A DNA stretch of 64,000 nt from Sulfitobacter sp. HNIBRBA3233. Lineage in GTDB: Bacteria; Pseudomonadota; Alphaproteobacteria; Rhodobacterales; Rhodobacteraceae. How positions within the stretch are numbered: the stretch's first letter is position 1; each line of letters begins with the position of its first letter. This document shows positions 6,021 to 62,353 of the stretch, piece by piece. The stretch spans positions 186,001 to 250,000 of the forward strand of contig NZ_JBEFLP010000002.1 in assembly GCF_040149665.1 (NCBI RefSeq), in the 5' to 3' direction. Made by a program: the position numbers and the translations under genes. The notes below the pieces were generated by a model that ran no database searches, was not told where the DNA came from, and worked only from the letters and a program-made list of their open reading frames with translations.

Positions 6021-6025
6021 TAGTC

Positions 6026-13456: not shown

Positions 13457-13476
13457 AGAAGTCGGGGAGGAATACG

Positions 13477-42147: not shown

Positions 42148-42824
42148 AGCTGGGCGTGCCGTCCAAGGGCCGGCTGATGGAAAAGACCTTCCAGTGGTTC
42201 GCCGCGCGGGGCATCACCCTGACGCGGACCGGATCGGACCGCGAATACGCAGGGGCTGTCGAGGGGATCGACGGTGTCGCGCTGGTGCTGCTCTCTGCCG
42301 GAGAGATCCCGCGCGAACTGGCGGCGGGACGTATCCACCTTGGCGTTACCGGCACCGATCTGGTGCACGAGAAACTTGCCCTTTGGGACAGGCTGGTCGA
42401 ACCGGTCGCTCCTCTGGGATTCGGTCAGGCCGATCTGATCATCGCCGTGCCGCAGGCATGGATCGACGTCGATACGCTGCACGATCTGGATGCCGCCGCG
42501 GCGGCCTTTCGCGCCGAACACGGCCACCCGTTGCGGATCGCGACGAAATACCACCGCCTCGTGCGGGAGTTCCTGCGCCATTCGGGTGTCGCGGATTATG
42601 CGCTGGTCGACAGCCAGGGCGCGACCGAGGGCACGGTGGCAAATGAAACCGCCGAGGCGATCGCCGACATTACCTCGACCGGAGAGACCCTGCGCGCAAA
42701 CCATCTGAAAATTCTGGGCGATGGCCTGATTCTGCGCAGCGAAGCGACCCTGTGGCAATCGCGCCGCGCGCCGCTGGACGGGGGTGTGCGCGACACGCTC
42801 GATGATCTGCTTTCGCGCCTGTAA
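42141..42824 (+). CDS. hisG: ATP phosphoribosyltransferase, short form
   Basis: The 227-residue catalytic subunit lacks the C-terminal regulatory domain of long HisG, as expected with HisZ upstream. Motifs include LGVPSKGRLMEKTF at the N-terminus, LGVTGTDLVHE, the substrate loop RIATKYHRLVREF and EGTVANETAEAIADI. It condenses ATP and PRPP to phosphoribosyl-ATP. It starts 7 bp inside hisZ, so the three genes form one operon. Confidence 0.96.
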   Translation: MLKLGVPSKGRLMEKTFQWFAARGITLTRTGSDREYAGAVEGIDGVALVLLSAGEIPRELAAGRIHLGVTGTDLVHEKLALWDRLVEPVAPLGFGQADLIIAVPQAWIDVDTLHDLDAAAAAFRAEHGHPLRIATKYHRLVREFLRHSGVADYALVDSQGATEGTVANETAEAIADITSTGETLRANHLKILGDGLILRSEATLWQSRRAPLDGGVRDTLDDLLSRL

Positions 42825-42845
42825 CGGGCAGGGGCGCCCGCAGCC

Positions 42846-43277
42846 TCAGAGGACGCCGATATCGGCCAATGCGCGGCTGAGTTCGGCAGGGATCGCCTCT
42901 TCGCCCGAACGGCCCTTCGGCAGGTCGGCGGGCGCGTCTTCGGGCTTGAGATACCGCCAGCCCTGAAAAGGCCGGCGCAGCGCTGTCACGGTGGGAATCA
43001 CCTCAGGATCCAGCACGATTCCGCAGCGCCTGATCCCGTCCTGACCGAATTTCTCGTCAAGGCGGATAATCCGCTGGCGTGCGGAAATCTCTCCCTTGAT
43101 GACCCAGTAGATCGAGCCGCCGTTGATGATCTCGGCCTCCCGCTTTGGCCACATGCGCGTCAGGTGGTAATACTGCCCGTTCTCGATCTGTTTCGAGCGG
43201 TGCAGTTGCCAGTCGATCAATTGATCGACGCTTTCGGTTCCGACCGACAGCTTGATGAGATGAATGTGCGAAGCCAT
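42846..43277 (-). CDS. DUF1489 family protein
   Basis: A 143-residue protein containing HIHLIKLSVGTESVDQL at the start, TRMWPKREAEI, GSIYWVIKG and RPFQGWRYLKPEDAP near the end; this combination is the DUF1489 family, which is widespread in alphaproteobacteria and has no known function. Convergent with hisG (21-bp gap) and divergent from nrdJ. Confidence 0.85.
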   Translation of the reverse strand: MASHIHLIKLSVGTESVDQLIDWQLHRSKQIENGQYYHLTRMWPKREAEIINGGSIYWVIKGEISARQRIIRLDEKFGQDGIRRCGIVLDPEVIPTVTALRRPFQGWRYLKPEDAPADLPKGRSGEEAIPAELSRALADIGVL

Positions 43278-43535
43278 ACCGATCTATCCCCGATTCCCGA
43301 AAGCGACACAATTGAAAAAAATGGCGTGTTTAACCATATAGTGTGTTGACGCATGTGCGTCCTACCACATATGCCGTCTCTCGAACAGCCACCAATCGCC
43401 ATGGATCTATCCTTACCACCGCCGAGGGTGATTTCCCATGCGGCGAAATTGACGATATTGCCAGTTGAGATTTGTGGCCCGACAGACCAAGATGCAGGTC
43501 CCCCTGCCGACACCTCCAATGATGAAAGTGCGCCC

Positions 43536-45824: not shown

Positions 45825-45849
45825 AGCGGGCGTCGAAGGCTGGTTGTAA

Positions 45850-45874
45850 CTGAAAGGGCTTGTTCGCCTTTCAG
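45850..45874 (+). other. Stem-loop in the nrdJ 3' region
   Basis: A perfect 8-bp stem (CTGAAAGG / CCTTTCAG) with a 9-base loop, 25 bases after the nrdJ stop. It has no T run of its own. With the terminator at 45914 it encloses about 90 bases that could be the long 3' end of nrdJ or a small RNA. Confidence 0.5.
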
Positions 45875-45913
45875 AGTAATGTTGCGGCCAGTCGCGCAAG
45901 CTTAACGTAAGAG

Positions 45914-45937
45914 CCGGGCGGAAACGCCCGGTTTTTT
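45914..45937 (+). terminator. Rho-independent terminator of nrdJ
   Basis: CCGGGCG, tetraloop GAAA, CGCCCGG, then six T. A GNRA-capped perfect stem with a T tract, in the plus orientation, 90 bases after the nrdJ stop. Confidence 0.95.
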
Positions 45938-46225
45938 CATCTAAGGAACGTGGTCGCTGTCAGTCGTTTTCGACCGACATCCGGATGCCCGTCGACCCGC
46001 CAGATACCAACGTAAGAAAAATTGGGAATCGGCGGCTACCTGACCCGCTTTCGCGTGAGAGCGGTCTTCCCCGATCCTGCCACCGTATCGCTGGGTTACC
46101 AAAGAAGCATTTGCAGATGATCGCCGCATCCAAGGTCGCTTCCACAAGCTGCAGCCGAACCGGTGAGGCCGCGAAATCGCGCCATACCCTTGTGCCGTAA
46201 ATCTTCTGCCTATACACGCACGCTC
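45938..46225. other. Intergenic region and presumed promoter of the que operon
   Basis: Between the nrdJ terminator and the riboswitch no convincing gene is seen; short frames on both strands overlap each other and have no family signature. It should contain the que operon promoter close to 46150-46215. Confidence 0.5.
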
Positions 46226-46261
46226 AACCGGTCGCAGCCTACCCGGTCAACAAAACAAGGG
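46226..46261 (+). promoter_or_regulatory. preQ1-I riboswitch (class I type II-like), upstream of queC
   Basis: The segment has the P1 stem ACCGG/CCGGT, the loop TCGCAGCCTAC, and the A-rich tail CAACAAAACAAGGG. It is almost the same, position by position, as the structurally solved Thermoanaerobacter tengcongensis preQ1 aptamer (stem, GUCGCAG loop, UUAACAAAACAAGGG tail). The last bases AAGGG would form the pseudoknot with the loop (CCTACC) and are also the Shine-Dalgarno of queC, six bases before its ATG. Binding of preQ1 should hide the ribosome site, so control is translational. It sits upstream of exactly the genes that make preQ1. Confidence 0.93.
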
Positions 46262-46267
46262 TTAAAA

Positions 46268-46969
46268 ATGAATACTCTGGTCATCTGCTCTGGCGGGCTC
46301 GATTCCGTATCGCTCGCCCATATCGTCGCTGCCGAGCATCGGCTCACGCGGCTTGTCTCCTTCGACTACGGCCAACGCCACCGCAAGGAGCTGGATTTCG
46401 CCGCTGCCGCCGCACGGCGGCTGGACGTCCCGCATCACCTCATCGACATGCGCACCATCGGTGCGGCGCTGACCGGATCGGCGCTCACCGACGACATCGA
46501 CGTGCCCGACGGCCATTACGCCGAAGAGACGATGCGCATCACGGTCGTGCCGAACCGCAACGCGATCATGCTGGCGATCGGCTTTGGCGTCGCTGCGGCC
46601 AATGGCGATGAGGCCGTCGCCACCGCGGTTCACGGCGGCGATCACTTCATCTATCCCGATTGCCGCCCGGCCTTCACGCAGGCTTTTGAGGTGATGCAGC
46701 GCATGGCCCTCGACGGCTACGCCGACGTGCGGCTCCATACGCCCTTCGTGGAGCGGACCAAGGCGGATATTGTAGTCGAGGGGGCCAAGCACGGCACGCC
46801 CTTCGCCGAGACGTGGTCCTGCTACAAGGGCGGCGCGGTGCATTGCGGACGCTGTGGCACCTGCGTGGAGCGGCGCGAGGCTTTCCACCTCGCCGGCATC
46901 AACGATCCGACCGACTATGCCGATCCCGATTTCTGGGCGAAAGCCGTGGCCGACAAGGAGGCGCGCTGA
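46268..46969 (+). CDS. queC: 7-cyano-7-deazaguanine synthase
   Basis: The 233-residue enzyme turns 7-carboxy-7-deazaguanine into preQ0 using ATP and ammonia. The PP-loop SGGLDS is at residues 8-13, and the C-terminal zinc site is CYKGGAVHCGRCGTC. The ATG is fixed by the riboswitch, whose AAGGG is the ribosome binding site; an upstream open frame from 46163 is not used. Its stop overlaps the queD start by one base. Confidence 0.97.
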   Translation: MNTLVICSGGLDSVSLAHIVAAEHRLTRLVSFDYGQRHRKELDFAAAAARRLDVPHHLIDMRTIGAALTGSALTDDIDVPDGHYAEETMRITVVPNRNAIMLAIGFGVAAANGDEAVATAVHGGDHFIYPDCRPAFTQAFEVMQRMALDGYADVRLHTPFVERTKADIVVEGAKHGTPFAETWSCYKGGAVHCGRCGTCVERREAFHLAGINDPTDYADPDFWAKAVADKEAR

Positions 46970-47322
46970 TGTTTCGTATTCGCAAGGAGTTCCACTTCTC
47001 CGCCTCCCACCAGCTGGCAAACCTGCCCGCCGACCACCAATGCGCCCGGCTGCACGGGCATAATTACATCGTGGTGATCGAACTGGCGGCGGAGGCGCTC
47101 GATGCGGACGGTTTTGTGCGCGATTATCACGACCTGAAGCCGCTCAAGTCCTATATCGACGACACCTTCGATCACCGGCATCTGAACGACATACTGGATG
47201 TTCCCTCGACGGCGGAAAACATGGCCAAGCATTTCTACGACTGGTGCAAGGCCCGCTGGCCCGAGACCAGTGCAGCACTGGTCAGCGAGACGCCCAAGAC
47301 ATGGGCGGAATACCGGCCATGA
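46969..47322 (+). CDS. queD: 6-carboxy-5,6,7,8-tetrahydropterin synthase
   Basis: A 117-residue member of the 6-pyruvoyltetrahydropterin synthase family. It has the zinc-binding histidines in FSASHQL and LHGHNY, catalytic Cys in [10 protein letters not shown], the DYHDLKP strand and the [10 protein letters not shown] end. It makes carboxytetrahydropterin from dihydroneopterin triphosphate, the first dedicated step of queuosine synthesis. TGATG coupling with queC, four-base overlap with queE. Confidence 0.95.
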
Positions 47323-48029
47323 CCACCCTGCGCATCGCCGAGATCTTCGGCCCGACGATCCAGGGCGAAGGCGCGCTGATCGGCGAGCCCACGCTCTTCG
47401 TGCGCGCGGGGGGCTGCGATTACCGCTGCACATGGTGCGACAGCATGCATGCGGTGGACAGCGCCTTTCGCCACGACTGGGCGCCTATGTCGCCGCAGGC
47501 GGTCTGGGAGGAATTGCATCGGTTGTCCGAAGGTCAGCCCGTGACGGTATCGCTGAGTGGCGGCAACCCGGCGATCCAGGATTTTGGCCCGCTCATCGCG
47601 CTCGGGCGCGCGCAAGGCTACCGCTTCGCCTGCGAGACCCAAGGCTCAGTCGCGCGGCCCTGGTTTTCGGATCTCGACACGCTGGTTCTGTCCCCCAAAC
47701 CGCCCTCGAGCGGTGAACGGGTGGATTGGGACATCTTCGCCGATTGCGTCGAAGCCGGTCGCGGCGCCCGCAGTACGGTGATGAAGATCGTGATCTTCGA
47801 CCAGACCGATTACGACTGGGCCAAGGACGCCCATGGTCGCCACCCCGACCTGCCGCTCTACCTCCAGCCGGGCAATCCCGAGGTCGACCCCGAGACGCCC
47901 GTCGACCCGCAGGCCCTGGCCGACCGGCTTGGCTGGCTGACCGAAACCGCAATGGCGGATCGCTGGTTCGCCCCCCGTATCCTGCCGCAATTGCATGTCC
48001 TGATCTGGGGCAACAAGCGCGGCGTCTGA
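47319..48029 (+). CDS. queE: 7-carboxy-7-deazaguanine synthase (radical SAM)
   Basis: The 236-residue radical SAM enzyme contains GPTIQGEG at the start and the cluster-binding cysteines Cys33, Cys37 and Cys40 in [22 protein letters not shown] is the SAM-contact strand and LSPKPPSSG the family motif. It ring-contracts carboxytetrahydropterin to CDG, the substrate of QueC. It lies third in the que operon and starts within the queD stop. Confidence 0.95.
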
Positions 48030-48045
48030 CCTTCCGGAGACCCTT

Positions 48046-48510
48046 ATGACCTCATCGATCTACAGCGACCTGAAGCAACTCGGCGGGGAAACCCGCGTTC
48101 CCGGCAGCCCCGAAGAGGCCGAGCTTGAACGGGTGGCCAATCCGCAGGCCGACATCGCCTACAACGTGCGCTTTACCGCGCCGGAATTCACCTCGCTCTG
48201 CCCGATGACGGGGCAGCCCGACTTTGCGCATCTGGTCATCGACTACGTGCCCGGCCAGTGGCTGGTGGAGTCGAAGTCGCTGAAGCTCTACCTCACGTCC
48301 TTCCGCAACCACGGCGCCTTTCATGAGGACTGCACCATTTCGATCGCGCGCCGGCTGGTCGACTTCCTCGATCCGCAATGGCTGCGCATCGGCGGCTACT
48401 GGTATCCGCGCGGCGGTATTCCCATCGACGTGTTCTGGCAGACCGGTCCGCTTCCGGAAGGCGTGTGGATTCCCGATCAGGGTGTTCCGCCCTATCGGGG
48501 ACGGGGTTGA
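48046..48510 (+). CDS. queF: preQ0 reductase (NADPH-dependent 7-cyano-7-deazaguanine reductase), short form
   Basis: The 154-residue protein is a unimodular QueF of the T-fold superfamily. The nucleophile is Cys52 in [15 protein letters not shown], with Asp59, Glu75 in the VESKSLKLY substrate motif and His93-Glu94 in [10 protein letters not shown]. It reduces preQ0 to preQ1, the ligand of the riboswitch at the head of this operon, so the operon makes its own regulator. Last gene of the operon, 16 bp after queE. Confidence 0.96.
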
Positions 48511-48685
48511 TTAGGGGATAGCGTTCGGTCCCTGCGGCTGCAACGTCTGCGCGCCAACAAGGAATGCGGGTTCAAATCTGACCCCGGCAAAGGCTGGTTT
48601 GTACCCGCGCTGTCGCTTGCCCGATCTTGTCGTCACGCGGAATGGATCTGCTCGCCTGCCCGGCAATCCGCGTCAGTCGCGGCCA

Positions 48686-48717
48686 AGGCTGCGCCTGTCT
48701 CGCGACAGGCGTAGCCT
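48686..48717. terminator. Long hairpin at the 3' end of the hydroxylase gene
   Basis: AGGCTGCGCCTGTC, loop TCGC, GACAGGCGTAGCCT: a 14-bp stem with one mismatch that abuts the minus-strand stop codon. There is no T run, so it may stabilise the message end or end transcription with help from Rho. Bases 48511-48685 before it hold nothing I recognise. Confidence 0.5.
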
Positions 48718-49376
48718 CAATCGTCGTACCACAGCCGCGACAGGTTGGCCTTGGATTTGAACACGCGGTCGAAGGCCGGGGTCTTGCCGGTCTCGTCATG
48801 CAGCAAACGGGCCGCTACATCGAGATCGTGCAGGATCTCGCGGCGTGCGGGGTCGCGCACCCAGCTGGTGATCCACCCGACGATGGCGACGCGCTCTCCG
48901 TCCGTGACCGGTTCGACCCGGTGCAGCGCGGATGTCGGATAAAGGATCATATCGCCGGCTTGCAGCTTGATGGCGCGATCTTCCAAAGCATCCTCAAGCA
49001 CAAGCTCTCCGCCGGTGTATTGCTCCGGGTCCGTCAGCGAGAGCGTGAAGGATAAATCTGTGCGCAGACCGTTCATCACCGGATCGTCGACATGGGTGCC
49101 GTAGGTCATGCCGCCACGATAGCGCGACAACAGCATACGCGCGTAATGCCGTGGCCGCGCGAAGGAGCGGACCAGTTCGTGACCATCGAGGGTCCTGCGG
49201 ACCTTCTCGAAAATCGCTTCCAGTCCGGGCGACTTGCTGGCCTGGAGGTTCGCTTTGACGTCCCGGGCATAGCGACCGGCCGTCTTGCGCCCGTCTTCGT
49301 AGTCGAGTGCGTCGGCGGCGTCCCGAAGGGCCGCCAACGCCTCGTCACCAAGCACATTGGAGATGACGATTGCCAT
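48717..49376 (-). CDS. Fe(II)/2-oxoglutarate-dependent PKHD-type hydroxylase (PiuC/YbiX-like)
   Basis: A 219-residue dioxygenase of the P4Hc fold. The metal ligands are His95 and Asp97 in GTHVDDP and His152 in ALHRVEPV, with Arg162 ten residues later for 2-oxoglutarate; YTGGELVLED is the family beta strand. Relatives (PiuC, YbiX) are often iron-regulated and lie beside siderophore receptor genes, but their substrates are unknown. No TonB receptor is within this window. The ATG is three bases after the stop of the repeat-protein gene, so both are translated from one message. Confidence 0.9.
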   Translation of the reverse strand: MAIVISNVLGDEALAALRDAADALDYEDGRKTAGRYARDVKANLQASKSPGLEAIFEKVRRTLDGHELVRSFARPRHYARMLLSRYRGGMTYGTHVDDPVMNGLRTDLSFTLSLTDPEQYTGGELVLEDALEDRAIKLQAGDMILYPTSALHRVEPVTDGERVAIVGWITSWVRDPARREILHDLDVAARLLHDETGKTPAFDRVFKSKANLSRLWYDD

Positions 49377-49379
49377 GGT

Positions 49380-50318
49380 TTAACCGCCTTCGCCTTCGCC
49401 TTCGCCTTCACCCTCGGCTGCGCTTTCGGCATGGCCCAGCGACAGGCCGGCCAGTTCCATGCGCGCTGCCGCGCCGTAGATCACTTCGGCATTTGGATCG
49501 AAGCTGCCCTGACCCTGAAGGTCGCCATAGACCGCATCGGTCACGCCCACCTGCTCGAGCAGGGTTTGCGCCACTTCGGCCAGCGCCGTGTCGCCGCTTT
49601 CTGCCATCTGCGTTGCTTCGGCCTCGACCACCCGCAGGAAGCCCCAGCTATCTTGGTATTCGTGCAGGTCGGTCACGGTTTGATTGTCGCCGATGGCGGC
49701 GCTGTATTCCTCGCCCGCGATGCGGGTCAGCGCCACAAGGCTTTCGACCTGCGTGTCGGCGGGATAATCGGCGCGTACGGCTTCCATCGTCTCGCGCATC
49801 TCGGTGAACAGGGCCTGCACCTCGGACAGATCTGCCTCGGCCTCGGTTGCGGCGGCCAGCGCCGCGATCTGGCCCTCAAGAGCCCCGTGGCCGGATTTCT
49901 CCAGCGCGTCCTCGACCGCTTCGTATTTCTCTTCGATCGGATGACCCATGTGGGTTTTTGCCGCCGCAAGATCGCCAGCCTCGTAAAGCGCGAGGCCCGC
50001 GCGCACATGCCCCTCCATGAAGGCAAGCCCGGTCAGAAGCGCGACGCCGCCATCGGCGGATGCACTGCCTTCTCCTTCGCCTTCACCCTCTCCTTCGCCA
50101 GAAGCGGTTTCCGGTGCTGCGCTGTGGCCTTCTCCTTCGCCCTCGGCCTGGGCGGAGATCGTGCTGGTCTGCTCGACAGATTCGCCTTCGCCTTCACCTT
50201 CCGCATAGGCTCCGCTGGCGGCGATAAACCCTGCGGCGGTCAAGGCCGCAACGCCTGTCAGGGTTGAGACTCGGCGCGCATTCACAAGGCGCGGACGGTT
50301 GTTTGGAGTATCGGTCAT
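49380..50318 (-). CDS. Exported protein with Gly-Glu repeat tracts, unknown function
   Basis: A 312-residue protein. A signal or Tat-like N-terminus (two Arg at 15-16, hydrophobic 19-35, AYA-EG cleavage) is followed by acidic Gly-Glu tracts at residues 40-46, 59-64 and 74-84, and another closes the protein at 302-312. Between them (90-298) is an Ala/Glu-rich, almost wholly helical domain with His103, His123, His126, His143, His219 and His296. I do not recognise it. Acidic Gly-Glu runs and helical His residues suggest metal or cation binding (inference), which fits its partner hydroxylase. GAGAGG lies six bases before the ATG. Confidence 0.78.
   Translation of the reverse strand: MTDTPNNRPRLVNARRVSTLTGVAALTAAGFIAASGAYAEGEGEGESVEQTSTISAQAEGEGEGHSAAPETASGEGEGEGEGEGSASADGGVALLTGLAFMEGHVRAGLALYEAGDLAAAKTHMGHPIEEKYEAVEDALEKSGHGALEGQIAALAAATEAEADLSEVQALFTEMRETMEAVRADYPADTQVESLVALTRIAGEEYSAAIGDNQTVTDLHEYQDSWGFLRVVEAEATQMAESGDTALAEVAQTLLEQVGVTDAVYGDLQGQGSFDPNAEVIYGAAARMELAGLSLGHAESAAEGEGEGEGEGG
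49383..49415 (-). repeat. Hexanucleotide repeat coding for the C-terminal Gly-Glu tract
   Basis: On the plus strand CCTTCG is repeated four times in a row, the last unit degenerate (CCTTCA). Further runs of the same unit lie at 50069-50100, 50126-50144 and 50184-50201 in the same gene. A six-base unit keeps the reading frame when copies are gained or lost. Confidence 0.8.
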
Positions 50319-50759
50319 GACTTACCTCTCATGCTTGGTTTTCTGGCCTCTCGTGTAGGCGCCTGCATGTCCAACGTCAATCCTTAGTATTTTAGTATGA
50401 AATAAATTTGATCCGCTGGCTTGAGGATCTTGGGGCTATCCGGCGGTTGCTGTGCGGGTTTGGCGACGGTGTTGGGTGTGGCTTTCCGCCTGCTGGAGCG
50501 TCTGGTTTCATTTGCAGCGATGGGCCGCAATGGGTGCAAAAGGCCTCTTGGAAGAACTTCTAATCCGGCACGATCCGATGCCGTTCGAAACAACGCACGG
50601 GAAGGAGAAGGTGTGACCCCACGGTGATGGTCCGACTGCCGCGCGCGAGGCCCGCCAAGCGCAATTGGAAATAAGATTTTGGCTGAATCGATTCCTCGCA
50701 GTAATCTGTCGAAGGCCGTTTGCTGAGATTGCCGCGAAAATTTTACAAAGGGGGCGATC
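50319..50759. other. Divergent intergenic region
   Basis: This 441-bp gap separates two divergent exported-protein genes. An AT-rich patch at 50381-50410 includes a tandem TTAGTAT/TTTAGTAT. Frames in the remainder (for example on the minus strand through 50384-50824) run into the next gene and have no family signature, so I call no gene. Confidence 0.5.
50352..50380 (-). promoter_or_regulatory. Possible sigma-70 promoter of the repeat-protein/hydroxylase operon
   Basis: On the minus strand TTGACG (good -35) is followed after exactly 17 bases by TACACG (weak -10), about 34 bases before the start codon. The tandem TTAGTAT repeats lie just upstream of the -35 and could be an activator or repressor site. 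Confidence 0.35.
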
Positions 50760-52124
50760 ATGCTGTCGTTTTTCAAAAATCCTCTGAAGACATCGCTGGC
50801 GCGGATCGCCTTGGCGGGAGTCACATGCTTCGGTCTGATGGCCGGTGCGTCAGCGGCGCAGCAAACGGCACAGGGGCAGGGGGCTGCATTCGGCGTCGAT
50901 CTCGTTCAGGCGGCCAGTCGCCTGAGTATGCGCGACAGCTATTCGAGGGGGCTGTACCTCTATATGCGCAGCAACCCTTCCATGCTGGACAATCAGGAGT
51001 TCTACGTCAATTTCCTGATCTATCTCATGACCACTTCCGACAGGTTCAACTGCACGAACGCCTTCGCGAACGAATTCGAGCGCCGAGATTATTTCACTCA
51101 GGCGTTCTCTCTCAAAGAGCAGTTGCGCAGTGCCGTCAATTCCGTCTGGATCCCGCAAAGGTTCGATATCGGGTATTCGATTGATACGGGTAGATACGAT
51201 TTCACCACGGGCGATCTGCCGTTTTCCAATATCCGGAGCGTCGGCCTGCGGCAGGTCCTGTCGGGAAGTTTGCAGCCTGACCGGAATGCGCAGGGATGTG
51301 CAAGGCAGATCCTGCAGGGCACGACCGTCACGACAGAGGCTTTCCCCTGGCAATTTTCGGTGGTGAACGAAGAAGCGAAACGGAACGCGCCGCAATTTCC
51401 GTTCGGCGGGTCGCTCAACCTGTCCCAGCAGGACGCGCGTGCCGTATTCGACAGGTTCGGGCGTCAGTTGTTTGCCATCGTCGGCTATCAATTTCAGGCG
51501 GCCAACAACGGCGAACGGATCGTGCAGATCATCCCCACGGACGGGCAGCTGTTCGGCCTGTCCAAGGATGCGGTGGTGCGGGTGAAGACATTCGAGCACC
51601 CGACATTGAGCATGGTTCAAAGCCTCGATGTCACGAATCCGATGAAGATTACGATCCCCGAATATAACATCGACATGCAGATGCTCTTTCAGCAGCAGGG
51701 ATTTCGCGCTGTCGGAACGGGCACGCGGAAGGTTGCGGGATCGGGCATCACCAGCGGGTCCAGCTTTCCGGTGACCGGATCCGCGGCGGTCGGCAATTCC
51801 GTTTTCGTCATGCGTCTGGAGACTGAAGGTCTGGAAGTCGATCGGCGCCGACTGGAGAACCTGCCAAATGGCGAGCGCTACCTGACGATCTTCGGAAGCA
51901 TCGATCGCGAAAAAGTCACGTCCGATTTTGCGCCCGTGTCGGGGCAGGCAATCGTCCTGCAACGCAATCCCCAGACCGGCGAGTTGCAGCAAACCAGTCC
52001 GGTATCCTTCGGCGGTGGCTTTACCCCGAAAGGCGCCGCTGAACCAAGCCAGCCCAAAGAGCCGGCATCGCAGCTCGACACCTCCCCGGTGATTGCGCCA
52101 AGCTTTTCTGAAGCTACGGAATAA
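50760..52124 (+). CDS. Exported protein of unknown function
   Basis: A 454-residue protein with a signal peptide (hydrophobic 14-31, AGASA-AQQ). The body (about 40-400) is mixed alpha/beta, with SRGLYLYMRSNPSMLDNQEFY near the start, a conserved-looking Cys pair (CTNAF and GCARQ), and beta-rich parts such as RVKTFEHPTLSMVQ. The last 50 residues are Pro/Ser/Gln-rich. I cannot assign a family. AAAGGGGG precedes the ATG by five bases. First gene of the group of six envelope genes; it is convergent with the peptidoglycan-binding gene. Confidence 0.7.
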   Translation: MLSFFKNPLKTSLARIALAGVTCFGLMAGASAAQQTAQGQGAAFGVDLVQAASRLSMRDSYSRGLYLYMRSNPSMLDNQEFYVNFLIYLMTTSDRFNCTNAFANEFERRDYFTQAFSLKEQLRSAVNSVWIPQRFDIGYSIDTGRYDFTTGDLPFSNIRSVGLRQVLSGSLQPDRNAQGCARQILQGTTVTTEAFPWQFSVVNEEAKRNAPQFPFGGSLNLSQQDARAVFDRFGRQLFAIVGYQFQAANNGERIVQIIPTDGQLFGLSKDAVVRVKTFEHPTLSMVQSLDVTNPMKITIPEYNIDMQMLFQQQGFRAVGTGTRKVAGSGITSGSSFPVTGSAAVGNSVFVMRLETEGLEVDRRRLENLPNGERYLTIFGSIDREKVTSDFAPVSGQAIVLQRNPQTGELQQTSPVSFGGGFTPKGAAEPSQPKEPASQLDTSPVIAPSFSEATE

Positions 52125-52142
52125 GCAGCGATTTAGCCGGAA

Positions 52143-52177
52143 ACATGAGCGACCGGAGCAGGGCCGACCGCTCATGT
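52143..52177. terminator. Hairpin between convergent genes (bidirectional terminator candidate)
   Basis: ACATGAGCG (52143-52151) pairs perfectly with CGCTCATGT (52169-52177), with an inner CGG/CCG extension. It fills the 60-bp gap between two convergent stops. There is no T run on either side. Confidence 0.55.
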
Positions 52178-52184
52178 CGAGGCA

Positions 52185-53441
52185 TCAGTTGCTCAGCAGG
52201 CTCGCGTCTGTCGCAGGTGCCGTGAAGGTCATGACCGGAGCTGCGGCGCCCTGTTGCTGCGGCTGCGGTGCGACGGGTTGCAAGACGGCGGGCTGTGTCG
52301 GCTGCTGGGCCACGGCAGCCGGCTGACCCGTGCTTTGGGGCGCAAAGATGTCGAGGGCCGATGGCGCCTGTTGGGGAGCCACGACAATCTGCTGTTGCGG
52401 CGCTGTTGCCCCTCCGGTGCTCGCAAAGATCGCGTTGTTCTGAGGCTGCTGTATGGGCTGAACCTGCTGCGGCTGCGGTGCAGCCTGGGCGGGCGCACCG
52501 AAGAGGGGCTGCTGTTGCTGTTGCGGCATCTGTTGCTGGGTGGGGGCACCGAAAAGCGGTTGCTGCTGCGGTGCGGTCTGGGGTGCGAACCCAGCAGTCC
52601 CCTGTGTCGCGGGCTGCGCCCCAAAGACCGGCTGAGGGGGCGGAGGTGTCGCGAAACCTGCGGATGTCGTGGGCGTGCCAAACTGGTTGTTCTGTTGTGG
52701 CAACTGTCCAAAGTTCGACTGCGGCACGGGCGCTGCGCCAAAACCGGTTGCACCGCTGGCAGCGGCAAACTGGGCCTGTGCCTCTTGCATCAGATTTTGC
52801 GGCAACGTGTAGCCGGCAGCGGTTGACGCCATGGCAAGGGACTGGACCTGCGGGACTTGCATCGGGTTCTGGCCCTGCGACGCCAGAAATGCGGCACGGG
52901 CGTTTTGGGTGCCAGCCCCGTTGATGCCATCGATTGTCCCGCGGTAGAATCCCAGACGCTGAAGGCTTTGCTGAAGCATGACCACTTCGTTCAGGTTGAG
53001 TTGACGGTCAGCGAAAGCGGGTGCTGGCGCGGCAAATCCGACACCCGTCAGGGCGAGGAACTGCGCGCGGGTCATCTGGCCGGTTGCCGCTTCGCCACGG
53101 CTCGCCTGGAATTGCGAGATTGCCGCGCGGCTTTTGGGGCCAAGCGACCCGTCCACGACACCTACATTCAGCCCCATGTTGTTGAGAGAGGTCTGTATCT
53201 GGCGACGCTCGTCGCGTGTGAACTGGCTGTTGAGGCTGGCAGGCACATTTGCACGGTTCTTGACCGTTCGGGTGGTTCTCTTGGCCGTTGCTCTTTTCTG
53301 GGCCTGGCTGTTGCGGACGCTCTGGTTGATCGCCGCACCGATCACGCCGCCGATCAGGGCATCCTTGAGATCCGCGTAAACAGGGTTTGGGGCGCTAAGC
53401 GCGAGTGACAGGGCGATTGCCGAACTCATTGCAATTTTCAT
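52185..53441 (-). CDS. Exported protein with two peptidoglycan-binding domains and a Gln/Pro-rich tail
   Basis: A 418-residue protein. After the signal peptide (MKIAMSSAIALSLALSA, YA-DL) comes a glycine-zipper-like helix (LIGGVIGAAINQSV), then a PG_binding_1 module at about 72-130 (IQTSLNNMGLNVGVVDGSLG) and a second at about 146-193 (LQQSLQRLGFYRGTIDGING). The remainder (200-418) is low-complexity Gln/Pro/Ala with a repeated unit PLFGAP/PVFGAQ. It should sit on the cell wall. The ATG at 53441 follows GAGAGGA; a longer frame upstream has no signal peptide. Confidence 0.8.
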   Translation of the reverse strand: MKIAMSSAIALSLALSAPNPVYADLKDALIGGVIGAAINQSVRNSQAQKRATAKRTTRTVKNRANVPASLNSQFTRDERRQIQTSLNNMGLNVGVVDGSLGPKSRAAISQFQASRGEAATGQMTRAQFLALTGVGFAAPAPAFADRQLNLNEVVMLQQSLQRLGFYRGTIDGINGAGTQNARAAFLASQGQNPMQVPQVQSLAMASTAAGYTLPQNLMQEAQAQFAAASGATGFGAAPVPQSNFGQLPQQNNQFGTPTTSAGFATPPPPQPVFGAQPATQGTAGFAPQTAPQQQPLFGAPTQQQMPQQQQQPLFGAPAQAAPQPQQVQPIQQPQNNAIFASTGGATAPQQQIVVAPQQAPSALDIFAPQSTGQPAAVAQQPTQPAVLQPVAPQPQQQGAAAPVMTFTAPATDASLLSN

Positions 53442-53577
53442 GATATGGTCCTCTCTCGGAACTGAATTGATTTGCGCATAGATTAAATGAATTGCATCGA
53501 CTGTATTCGGAACGGGCCGCTTGTGTCTACGCTCTTGACCGGTCGCGCCGGGCTGTCTGGGGTCGCGCCGAAGGGCG

Positions 53578-54600
53578 CTATGACCCGTCAGGATCGGCCT
53601 TGCCCCGCGCGTTGCCGTTGGAGGAGGGCGGTGTCGCGAAATAGGTATTGGACAGTGCGATCGCCGTTGCCAGCAAACCGAACAGCGTGGCGAGCGCAAC
53701 GGGGATGGTGTCTGCCGCGATCCTCTGTGTCCACGAGACCGGAATGATCGTGGGCGCGCTGCCGATGCGCGTCAGCCGCAGGGCGCTGTATTGCGACGGG
53801 CTTGTCGCGACCATGTCAAAAGCGGGGCTGAGCCTGCTGAGGTTGGTTACAAACAGCGTCGCGACGATATCATCCTCGGCGTTTCCGGCGGGGGCCGTTG
53901 CGCCCCGGTCCCAGAACGGCCCGCTCTGCCGCGCGAAACCGATGCGGTCCCCGGGGTAGAAATCTCCCTGGGCCACCAGCGATGGCCGGCGGGTGATGCC
54001 GAGGGTCTGGCGGATTTCGTACCGCGCTTCGCGGAGCAGCATTTCGTGGCGTCCGTCGGGCAGGTGCCCGATGCTGATGCGTCCCCGCATCGGGATCAAC
54101 GGGCGTTCCGGACCGTCCCACGGAATTCTCAGAATGCTGCCACCCGTGACTTGAAGCTCGGCGGGACTGTCGTAGTCGGCCTGACCATCGCGCATCCGGT
54201 ATCCATCGATGATGACGGGTTTGGCTGTCTCTTCCTTGCCCACCAGAAGAAGAAGGAAAGAAGGGTCGCGCCCCTGAAAGGTCAGCGTGTACCCTTCGCT
54301 CCACCTCAGCGTGATGTCGGCCAGCCGGTGCTGTTCGTAAAGGCTGTTGTCGCAATCCGCGACATCGATGCTGCTGGCCCTGGAACCCTCATTCGTTCGC
54401 AGGCATATGGAGGCGTCGGGCAGCTCCCAATCCGGCGAGCTTTCGTTCACGGTGCGGACAACAAGGTATTCAGTCGATGCAAAGACGGTAAAGGACTGCT
54501 TTCGCGGAAGCACATAATAGATGACGAATGCCACGAAGATGATGGTCAGCCCGGCGCGTGCGATGCGCCCCGAAAAGCCGACCTCGGCGCGGTACGCCAA
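53578..54600 (-). CDS. Membrane protein with two terminal anchors and a periplasmic domain, unknown function
   Basis: A 340-residue protein with one membrane helix near the N-terminus (about 15-32, GLTIIFVAFVIYYVL) and one near the C-terminus (about 298-318, TIPVALATLFGLLATAIAL). The roughly 260 residues between them are beta-rich and would face the periplasm; Cys61 and Cys83 could pair. No family recognised. The start is uncertain: the first usable codon after the upstream stop is the TTG at 54600, with no clear ribosome site, so the frame may begin slightly upstream by coupling with the preceding gene. Confidence 0.65.
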   Translation of the reverse strand: MAYRAEVGFSGRIARAGLTIIFVAFVIYYVLPRKQSFTVFASTEYLVVRTVNESSPDWELPDASICLRTNEGSRASSIDVADCDNSLYEQHRLADITLRWSEGYTLTFQGRDPSFLLLLVGKEETAKPVIIDGYRMRDGQADYDSPAELQVTGGSILRIPWDGPERPLIPMRGRISIGHLPDGRHEMLLREARYEIRQTLGITRRPSLVAQGDFYPGDRIGFARQSGPFWDRGATAPAGNAEDDIVATLFVTNLSRLSPAFDMVATSPSQYSALRLTRIGSAPTIIPVSWTQRIAADTIPVALATLFGLLATAIALSNTYFATPPSSNGNARGKADPDGS

Positions 54601-54641
54601 CAGCCGCCGTCCCGCAGCCAGTGTCCTGCTGAAGACCGCGC

Positions 54642-55418
54642 TTATGGTGCTACTCCCAGGAAAATCACGGCGCTGCGCGGCGCGGAGACCCGTCCGCGAT
54701 ACAGCCGTTTATAGCCGAATCTGAGGGTCGCATCCGCATGCGTCGGCATATATTCTGCGGGAATGGTGAACGAGCACCTGAAGTTGTAGGCCAGCGCATC
54801 GGGGCTGTCTATTCGCGCGCAGGCAGGCTCCAGCCTGATCCGGGTCGATCCTGCCTCGATCAATTCCGCCTCCGCCAGCAATTCGTCGGCCCGTGCGATG
54901 TTCATATTGAGCATCAGTTCGATGTCCTGATCCTCAGCCCCCAGGGTCTCTGCGCCCTCATTCCAGAAATTCGCCAGATATTGGCGATCCGTTTTAGAGG
55001 TATCGCCAATACACCGGCCTTTTTCCAAAGTGATACCGCTGTTGTCCGGCGACACCTCGGAAATGATGTCCTCGTATCTGGAAATGAAATTCAATCTTGC
55101 ACGGCGCGTATTCACTTCTTCGGGAACGTTGAACTCGACGAGCGCGGTGTAATTGCCGACGATTGTCGTGATCCGCGCACATATCGTGGTCCCCAGCCAC
55201 TCTTCGGGAATGACGGCTTCGATCTGTGGCCTTTGCTGTTCGGGAAGGTCGGATCCGATCACATGCAAACCGCGAAGCCAGTTCGGTTTGGAAATCAGTG
55301 TGCGTTCCGGATCCGTTTCGCTGATGACCAGACCTTCGAGCGGCAGCACGTCCTGCGCCGTTGCCTCGCCCGCAAACAGCAGTGCCGAAAGAAGAATTGA
55401 CAGGCGCTTCACGGTCAT
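54642..55418 (-). CDS. Exported protein of unknown function
   Basis: A 258-residue protein with a signal peptide (MTVKRLSILLSALLFAGEATA-QD). The mature part is beta-rich and has paired cysteines (TICARI/GRCIGD and EPACAR/FRCSFT). It ends YRGRVSAPRSAVIFLGVAP. No family recognised. It lies 41 bases upstream of the two-anchor membrane-protein gene on the same strand and is divergent from the trypsin-fold gene (42-bp gap, with the two promoters overlapping or both genes read from outside). Confidence 0.65.
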   Translation of the reverse strand: MTVKRLSILLSALLFAGEATAQDVLPLEGLVISETDPERTLISKPNWLRGLHVIGSDLPEQQRPQIEAVIPEEWLGTTICARITTIVGNYTALVEFNVPEEVNTRRARLNFISRYEDIISEVSPDNSGITLEKGRCIGDTSKTDRQYLANFWNEGAETLGAEDQDIELMLNMNIARADELLAEAELIEAGSTRIRLEPACARIDSPDALAYNFRCSFTIPAEYMPTHADATLRFGYKRLYRGRVSAPRSAVIFLGVAP

Positions 55419-55460
55419 GAACCTTTCGGGAACTCCTTTTCTCCCGAAGGTTAGGCGATT

Positions 55461-56504
55461 GTGATGTTGTTGCGAAGTCTCTTTATACTGGTCCTGCTCG
55501 CCGGTGCGGGACACAGCGCTGACGTGGCGATGGTCGAAGACGATCTGGGGCAGGCGCTGTTGTTCGAAAACCGCGGCCTGTGCTACGCGGTTTTGCCAAA
55601 TCACGTCTCCGCAACCAAAGACCGCGTTGCCCTGTTCGCGCCGTCCCCCCAAACCGTCGGCACCGCCGAGATTTTCTGGCGCGATACCGATAACGATGTC
55701 GCGCTTGCCTACGTCGAGGGCGCATTGAGCGATAGGTGTTCGATCACGTTCGACGCGCTGCCCACAGACCTGTCCGGGGTCCACGTGACAACGGAGACCG
55801 GATTGATAAAGAGCGTGCATTTCGACGGCGCGTTCTTTGACAGGATCGGTGCCACGTTGATCGATGTGGACGACACTTTCGTGACCGTCAGGCTATCGGA
55901 CGCGGGCACCGATGCGGACGTGATACAGGGGCTGTCCGGGGCGGTCCTGTCGGTTGCAGGCACGCTGAGCGGGATTGCCATCGATGCAGGAGACACCGGG
56001 GAGGCGCGTTTCCTCCGGATTGATCGCATCCGCGCGCTCATCGGGCGGCAGCTCAGCGCCACCTTGCATCCCAGCACACAGGCCATCGGCGCGGCGTCCA
56101 GCGGCTACGGATACCGCGTCACGGAGTTCGATGCAGGGGAGGGATCTGGCGTAATCGGACTTGAGCCGGGGGATCAAGGATCAACTTGGATCAGCGAATG
56201 GAGCGGCGCGCCGGTCAATTTCGAAATCACCCTGTCGAATACAGAGATACTGCCACTGAACAAGATTTCGATCTTCAGCTTCGTGTCCTCCACGACGACC
56301 CCGCCCCGCAGGATCAAGATCCTGATAGACAGAGGTCTTCCCGCCAGTCCCTACTGGACGCCGATTGCCACCCCCGATATGTCACCCACCGGCGTTTTCG
56401 AAGCTGCAACGGGCGGCACATGGGCGCGCAGGATCAAGATACAGATCGTCGATGTGTGGTATCCGGAGCGGAGCCTTAGAATTGACCAGCTGGTGGTCGA
56501 ATAG
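55461..56504 (+). CDS. Exported trypsin-fold protein (divergent S1-type serine peptidase) with C-terminal beta domain
   Basis: A 347-residue protein with a signal peptide (LFILVLLAGAGHSA). The N-terminal 200 residues show a chymotrypsin-like triad: His48 in CYAVLPNHV, Asp79 in DTDNDVALAYV, and Ser159 in VIQGLSGAVLS. The GLSGA motif departs from the usual G(D/N)SGGP, so the enzyme may be active with altered specificity or have lost activity. Residues about 215-347 form a separate beta-rich domain (WISEWSGAPVNFEITLSNTEI, WARRIKIQIVDVWYP) resembling a carbohydrate- or protein-binding module. GTG at 55461 and ATG at 55464 are both possible starts. Confidence 0.72.
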   Translation: MMLLRSLFILVLLAGAGHSADVAMVEDDLGQALLFENRGLCYAVLPNHVSATKDRVALFAPSPQTVGTAEIFWRDTDNDVALAYVEGALSDRCSITFDALPTDLSGVHVTTETGLIKSVHFDGAFFDRIGATLIDVDDTFVTVRLSDAGTDADVIQGLSGAVLSVAGTLSGIAIDAGDTGEARFLRIDRIRALIGRQLSATLHPSTQAIGAASSGYGYRVTEFDAGEGSGVIGLEPGDQGSTWISEWSGAPVNFEITLSNTEILPLNKISIFSFVSSTTTPPRRIKILIDRGLPASPYWTPIATPDMSPTGVFEAATGGTWARRIKIQIVDVWYPERSLRIDQLVVE

Positions 56505-56512
56505 GCAGCGCG

Positions 56513-57124
56513 TCACTCCTTGAGATCGATCTGGACCTGAACAAATTCGACATCGTTATAGTTCATGGTCCCGCGCATCACACCGTCATTCCCCAAATTC
56601 AAAACGGCCGATATCTTTTTGCGGTTCGGGAAAGACGGGGTAAGCTGGATCGCGTTGCCGACCTGCCGGATATAGCAACTTTTCTCGCCGCCCCAGCAAT
56701 CAGCGCCGCGGGCGGCGCGCACGCGATACAGAACCTGCCCCTGATTTTCGAGGTACGTGCCGCCATTGTCCGTGACCCACGCGGCGATATTCAGAGCGGC
56801 GCTTCGATCACCGGCAAATTGAATCCGCAGGTTCGGGGAGCTGTCCAGTATCGCCTTGATCGCCGCCTCGCGCATGACCGGATTGGTAGAGAAAAGCGCG
56901 TGTTCTTTCGCGATCCTCTGCAATGCGGGGTCCTCCAGCTTCAGCATTTGCTGGATCAGCGCATATTGCATTCGCGGATCGGGGTTTTGCAGGGCCAACT
57001 GATACTTGCCGATATCCTCGACCTGCTTTTCGGCGTTTGATATGATTTCCTCGAAAGTCTGCGCCGACCCGAGAGTGCCCATCGCGCAAAGAGCGGCTGC
57101 GAGGAATGACATTTTGATGCTCAA
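56513..57124 (-). CDS. Exported protein with HEAT-like helical repeats
   Basis: A 203-residue protein with a signal peptide (MSIKMSFLAAALCAMGTLGSA-QT). Residues about 40-100 hold helical repeats (DPRMQYALIQQML, DPALQRIAKEHAL, NPVMREAAIKAIL) similar to HEAT units; the C-terminal part is beta-rich with Cys141 and Cys147 (ADCWGGEKSCYI). Start: TTG at 57124 has AAGGAAG seven bases upstream, while the ATG at 57112 has none and would give a signal peptide lacking its basic end. It is convergent with the trypsin-fold gene (8-bp gap). Family unknown. Confidence 0.65.
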   Translation of the reverse strand: MSIKMSFLAAALCAMGTLGSAQTFEEIISNAEKQVEDIGKYQLALQNPDPRMQYALIQQMLKLEDPALQRIAKEHALFSTNPVMREAAIKAILDSSPNLRIQFAGDRSAALNIAAWVTDNGGTYLENQGQVLYRVRAARGADCWGGEKSCYIRQVGNAIQLTPSFPNRKKISAVLNLGNDGVMRGTMNYNDVEFVQVQIDLKE

Positions 57125-57358
57125 GATCGTCTTCCTTTCGTGTCGCGCGTTTATAAATATTTTGGATAACGCGGTTTGGATTGACAAGAATTTTCTGGCT
57201 GTGGTTTGCGTCCCGCAGGGTTGCAGGGCGTTTGCGCGGCGGATCAGCCTGACAGGTCGCGGGATGACCGCCAAATTCCACAGACGTTGATTTGTTCGCG
57301 CGCACAGGTCACTCTGGTCGGGAAATGCCGGGTTTCTTTTTCGCGGAAACCTCATTAT

Positions 57359-59852: not shown

Positions 59853-60236
59853 GCCGGCGCACCGGACCGCTTGCTGCACATGCGCAACAGCGCCCAAACC
59901 CCGCCTGCGGGCCGATGGAACAGTGTTCTGGTTTCTTTGCATTTTTCATGATATTATTCTGTGAGGGGAGAGATCTCGCTCATCGGAGGATGTGCGGGGG
60001 ACAACTATTCTAACTGAGCTTTGATGCGGCCGTTTTGTCCGCATGATTTTTTGCCGTCAGGAGTTTGCGTTGTATCGAGCGCGAAGACGGGACCGAATGA
60101 CGAGACGCAAAAGCCTCAAATAGCAAGAAATATCTGATAAACAGTTTGTTAACTGAAAAGATCAGGCTGAAGTCTCGCATGGCTCTTTAATTGGTTGTTG
60201 CGTCAACTCGCAGATAGTAGACGATGGGCGGCAGTG
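59853..60236. other. Intergenic region between eda and the MarR-type gene
   Basis: The 384 bp contain no supported gene. The right half is AT-rich and contains a hairpin with a T run (60024-60051) and a short inverted repeat CAGTT-N4-AACTG at 60142-60155 that could be the self-operator of the downstream regulator. Confidence 0.5.
60024..60051 (+). terminator. Terminator-like hairpin, probably of edd-eda
   Basis: ATGCGG (60024-60029) pairs with CCGCAT (60039-60044), followed by GA and six T. It is 170 bases after the eda stop, in plus orientation; the stem is short, so confidence is limited. Confidence 0.5.
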
Positions 60237-60695
60237 ATGACAGATAGCAAGCACGGTGGCATGGAAACAAAACTGGAACAGACCGAAAGGGCCCTGCCCA
60301 TCGCGTTGCTGAGGGCGCGCGAGAAGGTGATGGGGCCCGTGCGCGAAATGTTAGCCAATGCACCAGTGAACGAACAGAAATGGCGGGTGCTGCGGGTGCT
60401 CGACGAAAGCGGCGCGCAGGACCAGAACAGCATCGCCCGGGCGGCCTGTCTGCTGCTTCCCAGCCTCACCCGTATCCTGCGGGCGATGGAATGCGATGGC
60501 CTGATCTCGCGCTGCCCGGACCCAGAAGACAGGCGCCGCAGCATCGTGACCATTGAACAGGGCGGTCGCGATATCCTCGAGAGGTACAAGGACCAGGCGC
60601 GAAAGATCACGGCGGATTTGCGCGAGTCTTTCGGTGCCGACAAGCTCGACAATTTACTCGATCTTCTCGAAGACCTTCAGCGCACCAAGGTCTAG
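60237..60695 (+). CDS. MarR-family regulator, HpaR-like
   Basis: A 152-residue winged-helix regulator: NEQKWRVLRVLDESGAQDQN leads into the recognition helix PSLTRILRAMECDGLI, and the wing SRCPDPEDRRRSIVTIEQGG is typical of MarR proteins. Residues from EQTERALPIALLRAREKVM resemble HpaR, the repressor of homoprotocatechuate catabolism. No hpa genes are in this window, so it is an orphan here. Start at the first ATG after an in-frame GTG; a shorter form from 60261 is also possible. It is convergent with the sulfatase gene (8-bp gap). Confidence 0.85.
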   Translation: MTDSKHGGMETKLEQTERALPIALLRAREKVMGPVREMLANAPVNEQKWRVLRVLDESGAQDQNSIARAACLLLPSLTRILRAMECDGLISRCPDPEDRRRSIVTIEQGGRDILERYKDQARKITADLRESFGADKLDNLLDLLEDLQRTKV

Positions 60696-60703
60696 ACCTT
60701 CGC

Positions 60704-62353
60704 TTACTCCTCGCGGGTCGGCCGGTGTTTCTGCCGGACAGGCCCTCTGTAGCGTTCGGTCAGATCGTCGGGCACTTCGCTTCCGTCGTAGAGAAACGGC
60801 AGGATCCCCCGTCTGAGGGACCGTCCCCGCGACGCCTCGATATCGGCATCCGACCTGGTCACGCGCTGGGACATCCGCCGCCCCCACCTTGCAAGCGCAT
60901 CGTAAAGAACGCCCAGGGCAGGGTGGTCGTTACCGTGCTTGGCCAGATCGTTGAATTCATCCGGATCGGTTTCCAGATCGAAGAGCATCGGCCGGAACCC
61001 GCCCTCTGCATGGATCAGCTTGAACCGCCCGTCAAAGACCATGAACAGCCGTGCGTCCCGCGGTTGAAGACCGAGCTTCATGCATTGCGGCGTCGCCGAG
61101 TAATCGTATTCCGAGATCGCCACCTCGCGCCAGTCGGGGGTCTGCCCGTGCAGCCATGGCATCAGGGACCGGCCTTCGATGATGTGATCGGGCACGGCGC
61201 CGCCCGCGGCCTCGACAAAGGTCGCGGCCAGATCGATGCTTTCGACCAGTGCATCGCAGGTCGTCCCGCGCGTTGCATCCGCGGCGCGGCGCGGATCGTA
61301 GACGATCAGCGGCACCTTCACCGATGCCTCGTGGAACATGTCCTTCTCGCCCAGCCAGTGATCGCCCAGATAATCGCCGTGGTCCGAGGTCAGGACGATC
61401 ATCGTGTCGTCCATCCGTCCGGTATGCTCCAGATGATCCAGCAAGCGGCCCAGCTGGTCGTCGCACTGTTTGATAAGGCCCATGTAGGCGGGAATTACCT
61501 TTTCACGGACCTCGTCGCGCTGGAAGGCCGACGCGATCTTGCTTTCCATATAGGCTGCCAGAACCGGATGCGTGTCCTCGCGCTCCGCCTCGTGGCGTTT
61601 GGCCGGGGGCACATGGGCGGGGCCGTACATATCGTTGTAGGGCGCGGGCACGATATAGGGCCAATGCGGTTTGATATAGCTGACATGCGCGCACCATGGC
61701 CCTTCCTGCCGGTCGATGAAATCGATCGTGCGCGAGGTAAGCCAGGGCGTTTCGCTGTCGGGCTCGGCAATGTTCGCGGGTTTGTCCGCGTTGCGAAACA
61801 TCCACCCCGAAGCGATCTGGTCGTTCGATACGGCGGCATTCGCGTAATCGGCCCAGGGATTTTCGCCGTCGTATCCCCTTGATTTGAGGTATTCATTATA
61901 GGGCGAGCGTTTCTCGTCGTAGTAGCCGTCCGGCCCGTAGCCCCACAGGCCGTCATCGCGGATCCAGACATCAAAGCCGCATTCGGCCTGCCGTGCGCCG
62001 ATCACGCTGTCGGGCGACAGGCCCAGCCGCGCCATCCCCTCGGCGTCTGCCTTCATATGGGTCTTGCCGATCAGCCAGCAGTCCATGCCGAGCTTGCGCA
62101 GATGATCGCCCATCGTCTGCTCGCCCACCCGCAGCGGAAACCCGTTCCATTGCGCGCCGTGGCTTGAGGCATAGCGGCCCGTGTAGGTGCACATCCTGCT
62201 GGCCCCGCAGATGGGCGACTGGACGTAGGCATTGGTAAAGCGCACGCCCATCGCGGCAACGCGGTCGAAATTCGGGGTGTCGAGATGCGGATGCCCCGCG
62301 CAGCCGAGATAGTCGAAACGCAGCTGGTCATACATGATGAAAAGGATGTTCAA
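60704..62353 (-). CDS. Sulfatase/phosphonate monoester hydrolase-superfamily protein
   Basis: A 549-residue hydrolase of the alkaline-phosphatase superfamily. Metal site residues are in FIMYDQLRFDYLGCAG and TSDHGDYLGDHWLGEKD. The formylglycine position is the Cys in SPICGASRMCTYTGRY, which fits the C-x-A-x-R sulfatase consensus and could be modified by a formylglycine-generating enzyme. The lysine/His pair appears in WLIGKTHMK and YIKPHWPY. Without a signal peptide it is probably cytoplasmic. Substrate could be a sulfate ester or a phosphonate monoester. The TTG start has GGAG seven bases upstream. Confidence 0.85.
   Translation of the reverse strand: MNILFIMYDQLRFDYLGCAGHPHLDTPNFDRVAAMGVRFTNAYVQSPICGASRMCTYTGRYASSHGAQWNGFPLRVGEQTMGDHLRKLGMDCWLIGKTHMKADAEGMARLGLSPDSVIGARQAECGFDVWIRDDGLWGYGPDGYYDEKRSPYNEYLKSRGYDGENPWADYANAAVSNDQIASGWMFRNADKPANIAEPDSETPWLTSRTIDFIDRQEGPWCAHVSYIKPHWPYIVPAPYNDMYGPAHVPPAKRHEAEREDTHPVLAAYMESKIASAFQRDEVREKVIPAYMGLIKQCDDQLGRLLDHLEHTGRMDDTMIVLTSDHGDYLGDHWLGEKDMFHEASVKVPLIVYDPRRAADATRGTTCDALVESIDLAATFVEAAGGAVPDHIIEGRSLMPWLHGQTPDWREVAISEYDYSATPQCMKLGLQPRDARLFMVFDGRFKLIHAEGGFRPMLFDLETDPDEFNDLAKHGNDHPALGVLYDALARWGRRMSQRVTRSDADIEASRGRSLRRGILPFLYDGSEVPDDLTERYRGPVRQKHRPTREE

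Follow-up and report, generated by a model that had tools for sequence, protein, structure and literature searches.

Several described systems each share some traits with a group of four genes, here called g3 to g6, which lies in a 64,000-nucleotide stretch of the 3.92-Mb genome of Sulfitobacter sp. HNIBRBA3233 (C2:186001-250000; this whole stretch is referred to as the window). For noncontiguous operons the review PMC7154746 gives menE-menC-MW1733-ytkD-MW1731 of Staphylococcus aureus as an example, with an opposite-strand gene inside a co-directional group and almost no intergenic space; our cassette is arranged likewise in 33 of 36 loci, but it is known from gene layout, and one copy (L122) has all its genes on one strand. 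In S. aureus prophages, an antisense gene couples defense to the phage life cycle in the Tha/Ith pair, as set out in PMC11087260. The cassette resembles that pair in being accessory, carried by phages and provided with an antisense gene, whereas its products are four predicted exported proteins around a serine protease and Tha, according to that paper, is an RNase with a HEPN domain. Superinfection-exclusion morons such as P22 SieA (PMC10883804) are likewise phage accessory genes with envelope-acting products; the cassette differs from them in having four components, one of them a protease, and in occurring also on plasmids and beside transposition genes. To the DegP/DegQ/HtrA proteases, finally, the g5 product is linked by predicted export, a His-Asp-Ser triad and weak profile similarity in the first part of the domain. 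It differs from them in that no PDZ domain was found in it, that its C-terminus is instead discoidin-like and that it keeps constant partners in g3, g4 and g6.

A preliminary description of this region proposed a cluster of six exported or membrane-anchored proteins at positions 50760-57124 that switches strand several times. The open reading frame (ORF) listing bears out both points (g1 to g6 lie on strands + - - - + -, all with predicted export signals or anchors); the conserved unit, however, is not the six genes but the four-gene cassette g3-g6 (53578-57112), which is smaller and more widely spread. When each protein was searched against 60 genomes (our own, 35 others from the genus and 24 from other families), g3, g4, g5 and g6 matched in the same three, namely our own, one of the same genus (G010) and one of another family (G050), with identical order and strands in all three. 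Our own genome holds a second, diverged copy (L030, C1:938512-941328), and one extra match, to g6, was marginal and contained stops (G015). A g5 profile was found in at least 15 of 394 genomes in a sample of the family, at least 7 of 385 in a sample of the class and at least 3 of 398 in a sample of the phylum (own genome included; these are lower bounds, with five candidates scored per genome, and the samples overlap), so that the gene is rare and its spread patchy; one g5 match, in G754, is marginal (E 1.1e-5).

Loci collected through g5 from genome contigs, phage contigs and plasmids, with duplicates removed, contain all four families together in 36 distinct cases (32, plus L121, L122, L123 and L125) that span two classes of one phylum and include a copy in the laboratory strain Cereibacter (Rhodobacter) sphaeroides 2.4.1, where it lies on plasmid pC and its genes were assigned from position and protein accession as DQL45_RS22035 (g3), RS23585 (g4), RS22025 (g5) and RS22020 (g6). 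(L053, L054, L056 and L057 were excluded as the same contig or species as L065, L078, L083 and L077, and L124, taken to be the same as L079 (pTM2), L082, L084 and L086 as further duplicates.) The core genes are thus linked in relatives, not scattered, which supports the earlier suggestion of a transferred envelope module: the set occurs in distantly related bacteria as well as on plasmids and in phages. The layout g3(-) g4(-) g5(+) g6(-), with g5 as the opposite-strand gene between g6 and g4, holds in 33 of the 36 loci. In the three exceptions the genes are still together: g6 lies on the other side in L060; g4, g3 and g5 are co-directional in L121; and all four genes share one strand in L122, which belongs to another class. 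In a further, very divergent set (L064), again with the genes together, profiles recognize g6, g5 and g4, while the g3-like protein is assigned from its position only; L050, a short phage contig, has g5 and a partial g6. Six of 32 loci carry g6 in two or three copies. The literature listings that we searched contained no description of such a four-gene exported protease system, and the gene set is unnamed.

The four genes, judged from their sequences, travel and evolve together. Tree distances of the four families are correlated over 32 loci (pairwise r 0.80-0.92; none of 1000 permutations gave values as high), and the nearest kin of the window copy are identical for all four genes (L051, then L052, then L062). 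In all four comparisons the window copy is far from the second copy in its own genome, which in the g5 tree (given without support values) is sister to the copy on phage contig L081.

Mobile settings were recognized at 14 of 33 cassette loci, a count with no background rate for comparison. Pfam and PHROGs were applied to loci in which mobile genes had been spotted by eye, and some of these genes are fragments. Two loci are carried with phage structural genes: on L081 the cassette is embedded in the tail operon, flanked by tail chaperone/tube genes on one side and tape-measure genes on the other, and its g6, g4 and g3 run the same way as the tail genes; on L050 it lies beside terminase genes. 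Tn7-like transposition genes (rve/Mu-type transposase, TniB, TniQ) adjoin the cassette in L033, and in L055 its neighbors are TniB and, on the other side, a Mu-type transposase with a weak match (E 0.0053). Plasmids of C. sphaeroides, Tistrella mobilis and Paracoccus aminovorans hold copies; elsewhere we found a relaxase and an IS21-like transposase (L078), integrase fragments (L066, L075), a recombinase-domain protein (our own second copy), transposases (L072, L059) and a tail-fiber gene about 4 kb away (L058). In L122 two direct repeats of 300 nt, 95% identical (6859-7158 and 11851-12150, in helicase-like frames), enclose the 5 kb in which the four genes lie. The partial g6 of the phage contig (L050:1310-1759) begins with what looks like the N-terminus of an IS66 transposase, as if broken by an insertion.

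Coordinates of the six genes and of associated features in the window
Feature	Position	Strand	Description
g1	50760-52124	+	454-aa exported protein with no family match; accessory
g2	52185-53447	-	Accessory; exported, two PG_binding_1 domains, tail rich in Gln/Pro
g3	53578-54600	-	Core; membrane protein with a hydrophobic helix at each end and a beta domain between, presumably periplasmic
g4	54642-55418	-	Core; secreted all-beta protein with four invariant Cys, possibly tandem Ig/FnIII-like
g4-g5 divergent gap	55419-55460	.	42 bp between start codons in the window copy
g5	55461-56504	+	Core; secreted serine protease, trypsin-like, with triad H48, D79, S159; C-terminal beta domain weakly matching discoidin-like domains
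g5-g6 convergent gap	56505-56512	.	8 bp between stop codons; no room for a terminator
g6	56513-57112	-	Core; secreted protein of about 200 aa, weakly HEAT-like, two invariant Cys
Sigma-70-like promoter match	57159-57187	-	Just upstream of g6, TTGTCA-17-CAAAAT; consensus match only

The start codon of g3 (TTG) is uncertain, and the end of the region given in the preliminary description, 57124, is a TTG upstream of g6. Export is predicted for the families at large: an N-terminal hydrophobic 10-mer is present in 69 of 76 members of the g3-g6 families versus 143 of 416 flanking proteins (the signal peptides of g1 and g2 were read by eye). Pfam and NCBIfam scans of the window proteins g1, g3, g4, g5 and g6 gave no match above the curated cut-off, and their PHROG matches were no better than E 0.13.

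The trypsin likeness proposed for g5 shows in its residues, the triad and the GxSG motif (G157-x-S159-G160) being invariant in all 19 family members along with two Cys; the profile matches, on the other hand, are weak. Trypsin_2 is matched by one of the 19 (E 1.8e-5), and the best PDB profile match is DegP-like over the first part of the protein (E 0.018). An additional beta domain had also been proposed, and the C-terminus does match F5/8 type C and glucanase chains (the latter presumably CBM32), although weakly (E 0.023-0.08). Scans of g5 and its 19-member family with Pfam detected no PDZ domain at E<=0.1, and both the g5 and g6 families have only sparse or weak Pfam matches.

The double anchor noted for g3 recurs as a C-terminal hydrophobic segment in 17 of 17 members, and the Cys-paired g4 product belongs to a family in which four Cys are invariant (18/18). 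Structures were predicted for g3 and g4, one each, using the L071 member and 17-sequence alignments. The g3 model has helices at both ends and a beta domain (predicted local distance difference test, pLDDT, 85.8), and no relative of it was found in PDB (best E 0.039) or BFVD (best E 0.020). That of g4 is mostly beta (pLDDT 84.3) and its matches include tandem immunoglobulin/fibronectin type III (Ig/FnIII) and antibody chains (best E 2e-3, template modeling score at most about 0.3), which is not significant; the Ig/FnIII likeness of the model is suggestive only. Neither family has a significant Pfam match in any of its 18 members. The HEAT-like character assigned to g6 shows weakly in part of the family, six of 20 members matching HEAT_2 at E<=0.1 (best 1.2e-4), but the window protein itself stays under the cut-off (E 0.022); two Cys are invariant in all 20.

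The layout itself suggests how the genes may be transcribed. In 17 of 32 loci (the first 32, L121-L125 being left out of this count) the start codons of g4 and g5 share a single CATG, whereas other offsets within 40 bases occur in a mean of 0.54 loci (maximum 5); the relative reading frame of g4 and g5 is the same in 26 of the 32. Among 50 flanking divergent pairs, with starts from a simple gene caller, the CATG offset never occurs, the median gap is 271.5 bp and three gaps are of 50 bp or less. At the other end of g5, the convergent gap to g6, which over 31 loci ranges from -7 to 220 bp, has a median of 3 bp; a short gap here is not rare in itself, because 13 of 43 convergent flanking pairs have one of 20 bp or less. 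Where the starts overlap, the promoter and leader of g4 must lie inside g5 or beyond it, and the overlap together with the 3-bp gap suggests that g6, g4 and g3 may form one transcript through antisense g5, that is, a noncontiguous operon. The alternative, which concerns transcription only and is compatible with any functional reading, is that each of g4 and g5 is driven by a promoter within the 5' end of the other and that no transcription reads through from g6; we regard this as quite plausible if somewhat short of probable. Overlapping starts demand no more than promoters within the neighboring gene, and the Shine-Dalgarno-like match before g4 at 11 of 18 CATG sites (L079 counted twice) is what would be expected of a leader from either source; against it, a sigma-70-like consensus scan of the window found no match on either strand inside g4 or g5, other promoter types being outside the scan. 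At the same 18 sites g5 has 5 such matches, and the random background is 0.22. For called ATG starts the proportions are 12/26 for g4, 9/28 for g5, 4/22 for g3, 24/37 for g6 and 224/363 for flanking genes. These counts are mixed, and come from related loci, but they weakly favor a leader on the g4 mRNA.

As read from sequence, g3-g6 is a mobile, co-inherited set with predicted export signals and an intact protease triad in g5, and the set, built around this trypsin-like protease, probably acts in the cell envelope. The best overall explanation, to which we give somewhat less than an even chance, is a self-contained, transferred four-component envelope protease system, organized as a noncontiguous operon, with a possible role in protecting the host and the carrying element. 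Under this explanation g5 would be an active periplasmic serine protease, as its triad suggests, held to a glycan surface by its C-terminal discoidin-like domain; g3, with an inner-membrane anchor at each end, would be cleaved by it or act as its effector; and g4 and g6, with their conserved Cys, would detect a trigger or hold the protease in check. Where the genes have the common layout, g6-g4-g3 would be one mRNA running straight through the antisense strand of g5, and such read-through would cause protease and partners to be expressed reciprocally. The benefit, and the least certain step, would be that the host cell and the carrier element are shielded from phages or elements entering via the envelope. 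Carriage on phages, on plasmids and at transposition loci resembles that of defense and lysogenic-conversion cargo, and by this analogy the role of the cassette is perhaps protective and anti-phage. A more specific form, in which entry of a phage or element frees the protease onto the double-anchored effector, while the antisense layout keeps expression of the protease apart from that of its restraint and links the partners with the late operon in phages, seems to us unlikely. If the cassette is protective, it would add a periplasmic protease layer to bacterial immunity, and with the copy in C. sphaeroides 2.4.1 its function and any selection for noncontiguous layouts are testable together.

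Several observations count against this explanation. Reading by eye up to three genes on each side of the cassettes (181 proteins), we found neighbors that are mostly metabolic, and most are not defense genes; the protein beside the C. sphaeroides copy that matches the PADLOC caspase profile is an exception. In PADLOC-DB 2.0.0, window g2-g6, the g5 of our own second copy and the g3 and g4 of L071 have no match at E<=1. The role of g3 is a guess, because its fold matches nothing solved, and the fold of g5 itself is proposed from its motif together with weak matches. Antisense wiring cannot be essential, because L122 has all four genes on one strand, and in the window copy 42 bp separate g4 from g5 in place of the CATG overlap.

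Three other functions deserve consideration. The cassette may encode a regulated protease for envelope stress or maturation, similar in spirit to DegP/DegS and carried on mobile elements as a general fitness gene, in which g5 would process host envelope proteins and g3, g4 and g6 would form a membrane platform with regulators. The prediction of a trypsin-like protease in the periplasm, its weak profile matches to DegP-like proteins (E 0.018-0.46) and the many chromosomal copies that lie, by eye, beside metabolic genes are all consistent with this; yet the cassette is patchy in the genus (two of 36 genomes, own included), unlike housekeeping envelope proteases, and the family scans found no PDZ domain, so we consider it a credible but minority possibility. 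The mobile distribution, the opposed strands that permit reciprocal expression and the presence of three partners per protease would also fit an addiction (toxin-antitoxin-like) cassette, where g5 damages the envelope, g6, g4 and g3 neutralize it, and the set persists by punishing its loss, with no other benefit; four large components would, from general knowledge, be unusual for addiction, and we think this improbable.

We find it still more doubtful that the proteins act outward, as secreted or surface-bound enzymes that serve in nutrient use, in adhesion or against competing cells. Signal peptides, the weakly F5/8 type C-like C-terminus of g5, the PG-binding g2 in three loci, an exported protein of the caspase family next to the C. 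sphaeroides copy and a contractile injection cluster adjoining L051 would favor it, whereas g3 is predicted to be membrane-anchored at both ends, no secretion-system or adhesin family recurs among the clustered cassette neighbors, and neither g1 nor g2 occurs in the remaining 29 of 32 loci (setting aside a PG-binding protein of L062 that resembles g2). For adhesion or predation, which the preliminary description had also raised, the cluster beside the six-gene copy L051 is the sole positive hint.

Concerning the two accessory genes, g1 matches in our own genome only among the 60, and g2 matches in 40 of them through its common peptidoglycan (PG)-binding domain; wall binding by g2, as proposed, agrees with its two PG_binding_1 stretches (E 2.3e-17). 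Both genes stand with the cassette, in the same order, in three fetched loci only (the window, L051 and L052), and a six-gene module as the core is rejected on these counts. The g2-like protein in L062 (E 4e-13) is on the g6 side and may share only the PG-binding domains. The one PADLOC match of g1, to DndH (E 0.067, 8.8 bits), is negligible.

Low GC content, given as a mark of the region, is present (0.56-0.64 per kb), but other dips occur (for example 0.582 at 43001-44000 and 0.580 at 60001-61000), and the dip alone is not unique in the window. GC content at third codon positions (GC3) is 0.67-0.77 in g1-g6, mostly below that of the 43 other window genes (mean 0.793, standard deviation 0.030, minimum 0.696), with g3 (0.768) and g5 (0.744) the least unusual of the six. 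No flanking direct repeats stand out in the window, and no clean empty site in the genus was found among relatives fetched upstream of edd. In all five fetched relatives edd and its downstream neighbor match and no window ORF of at least 90 aa from 40000-57300 does; the ORFs adjoining edd vary, by eye, among the 20 places listed. To the left of the six genes, at 48717-50318, a 2OG-Fe(II) oxygenase (Pfam) is preceded by an exported protein with Glu-Gly repeats that occurs in one of 21 genus genomes, our own only, and the atypical island may for this reason extend further left.

Among the clustered neighbors of the cassettes, ABC transporters, in 10 loci, are the sole group found in more than three, and several groups occur in three. 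The C. sphaeroides copy (L083) is flanked on its g3 side by two small proteins and one of the caspase family, which matches the PADLOC caspase profile at E 1.2e-14, and on its other side by a protein of 692 aa whose signal peptide was recognized by eye (4491-6933 and 12307-14382 for these neighbors); in another C. sphaeroides plasmid record (L086:4198-7591) the genes in the places of g3, g4 and g6 are annotated shorter than in L083. The contractile injection cluster of L051 (14788-19000) comprises gp25, PAAR, baseplate hub, contractile injection system (CIS) tube and gp19. Two copies from different genera, the canonical L061 and the very divergent L064, both lie, by eye, just upstream of a murA-like gene (L061:11806-13071 and L064:12878-14143).

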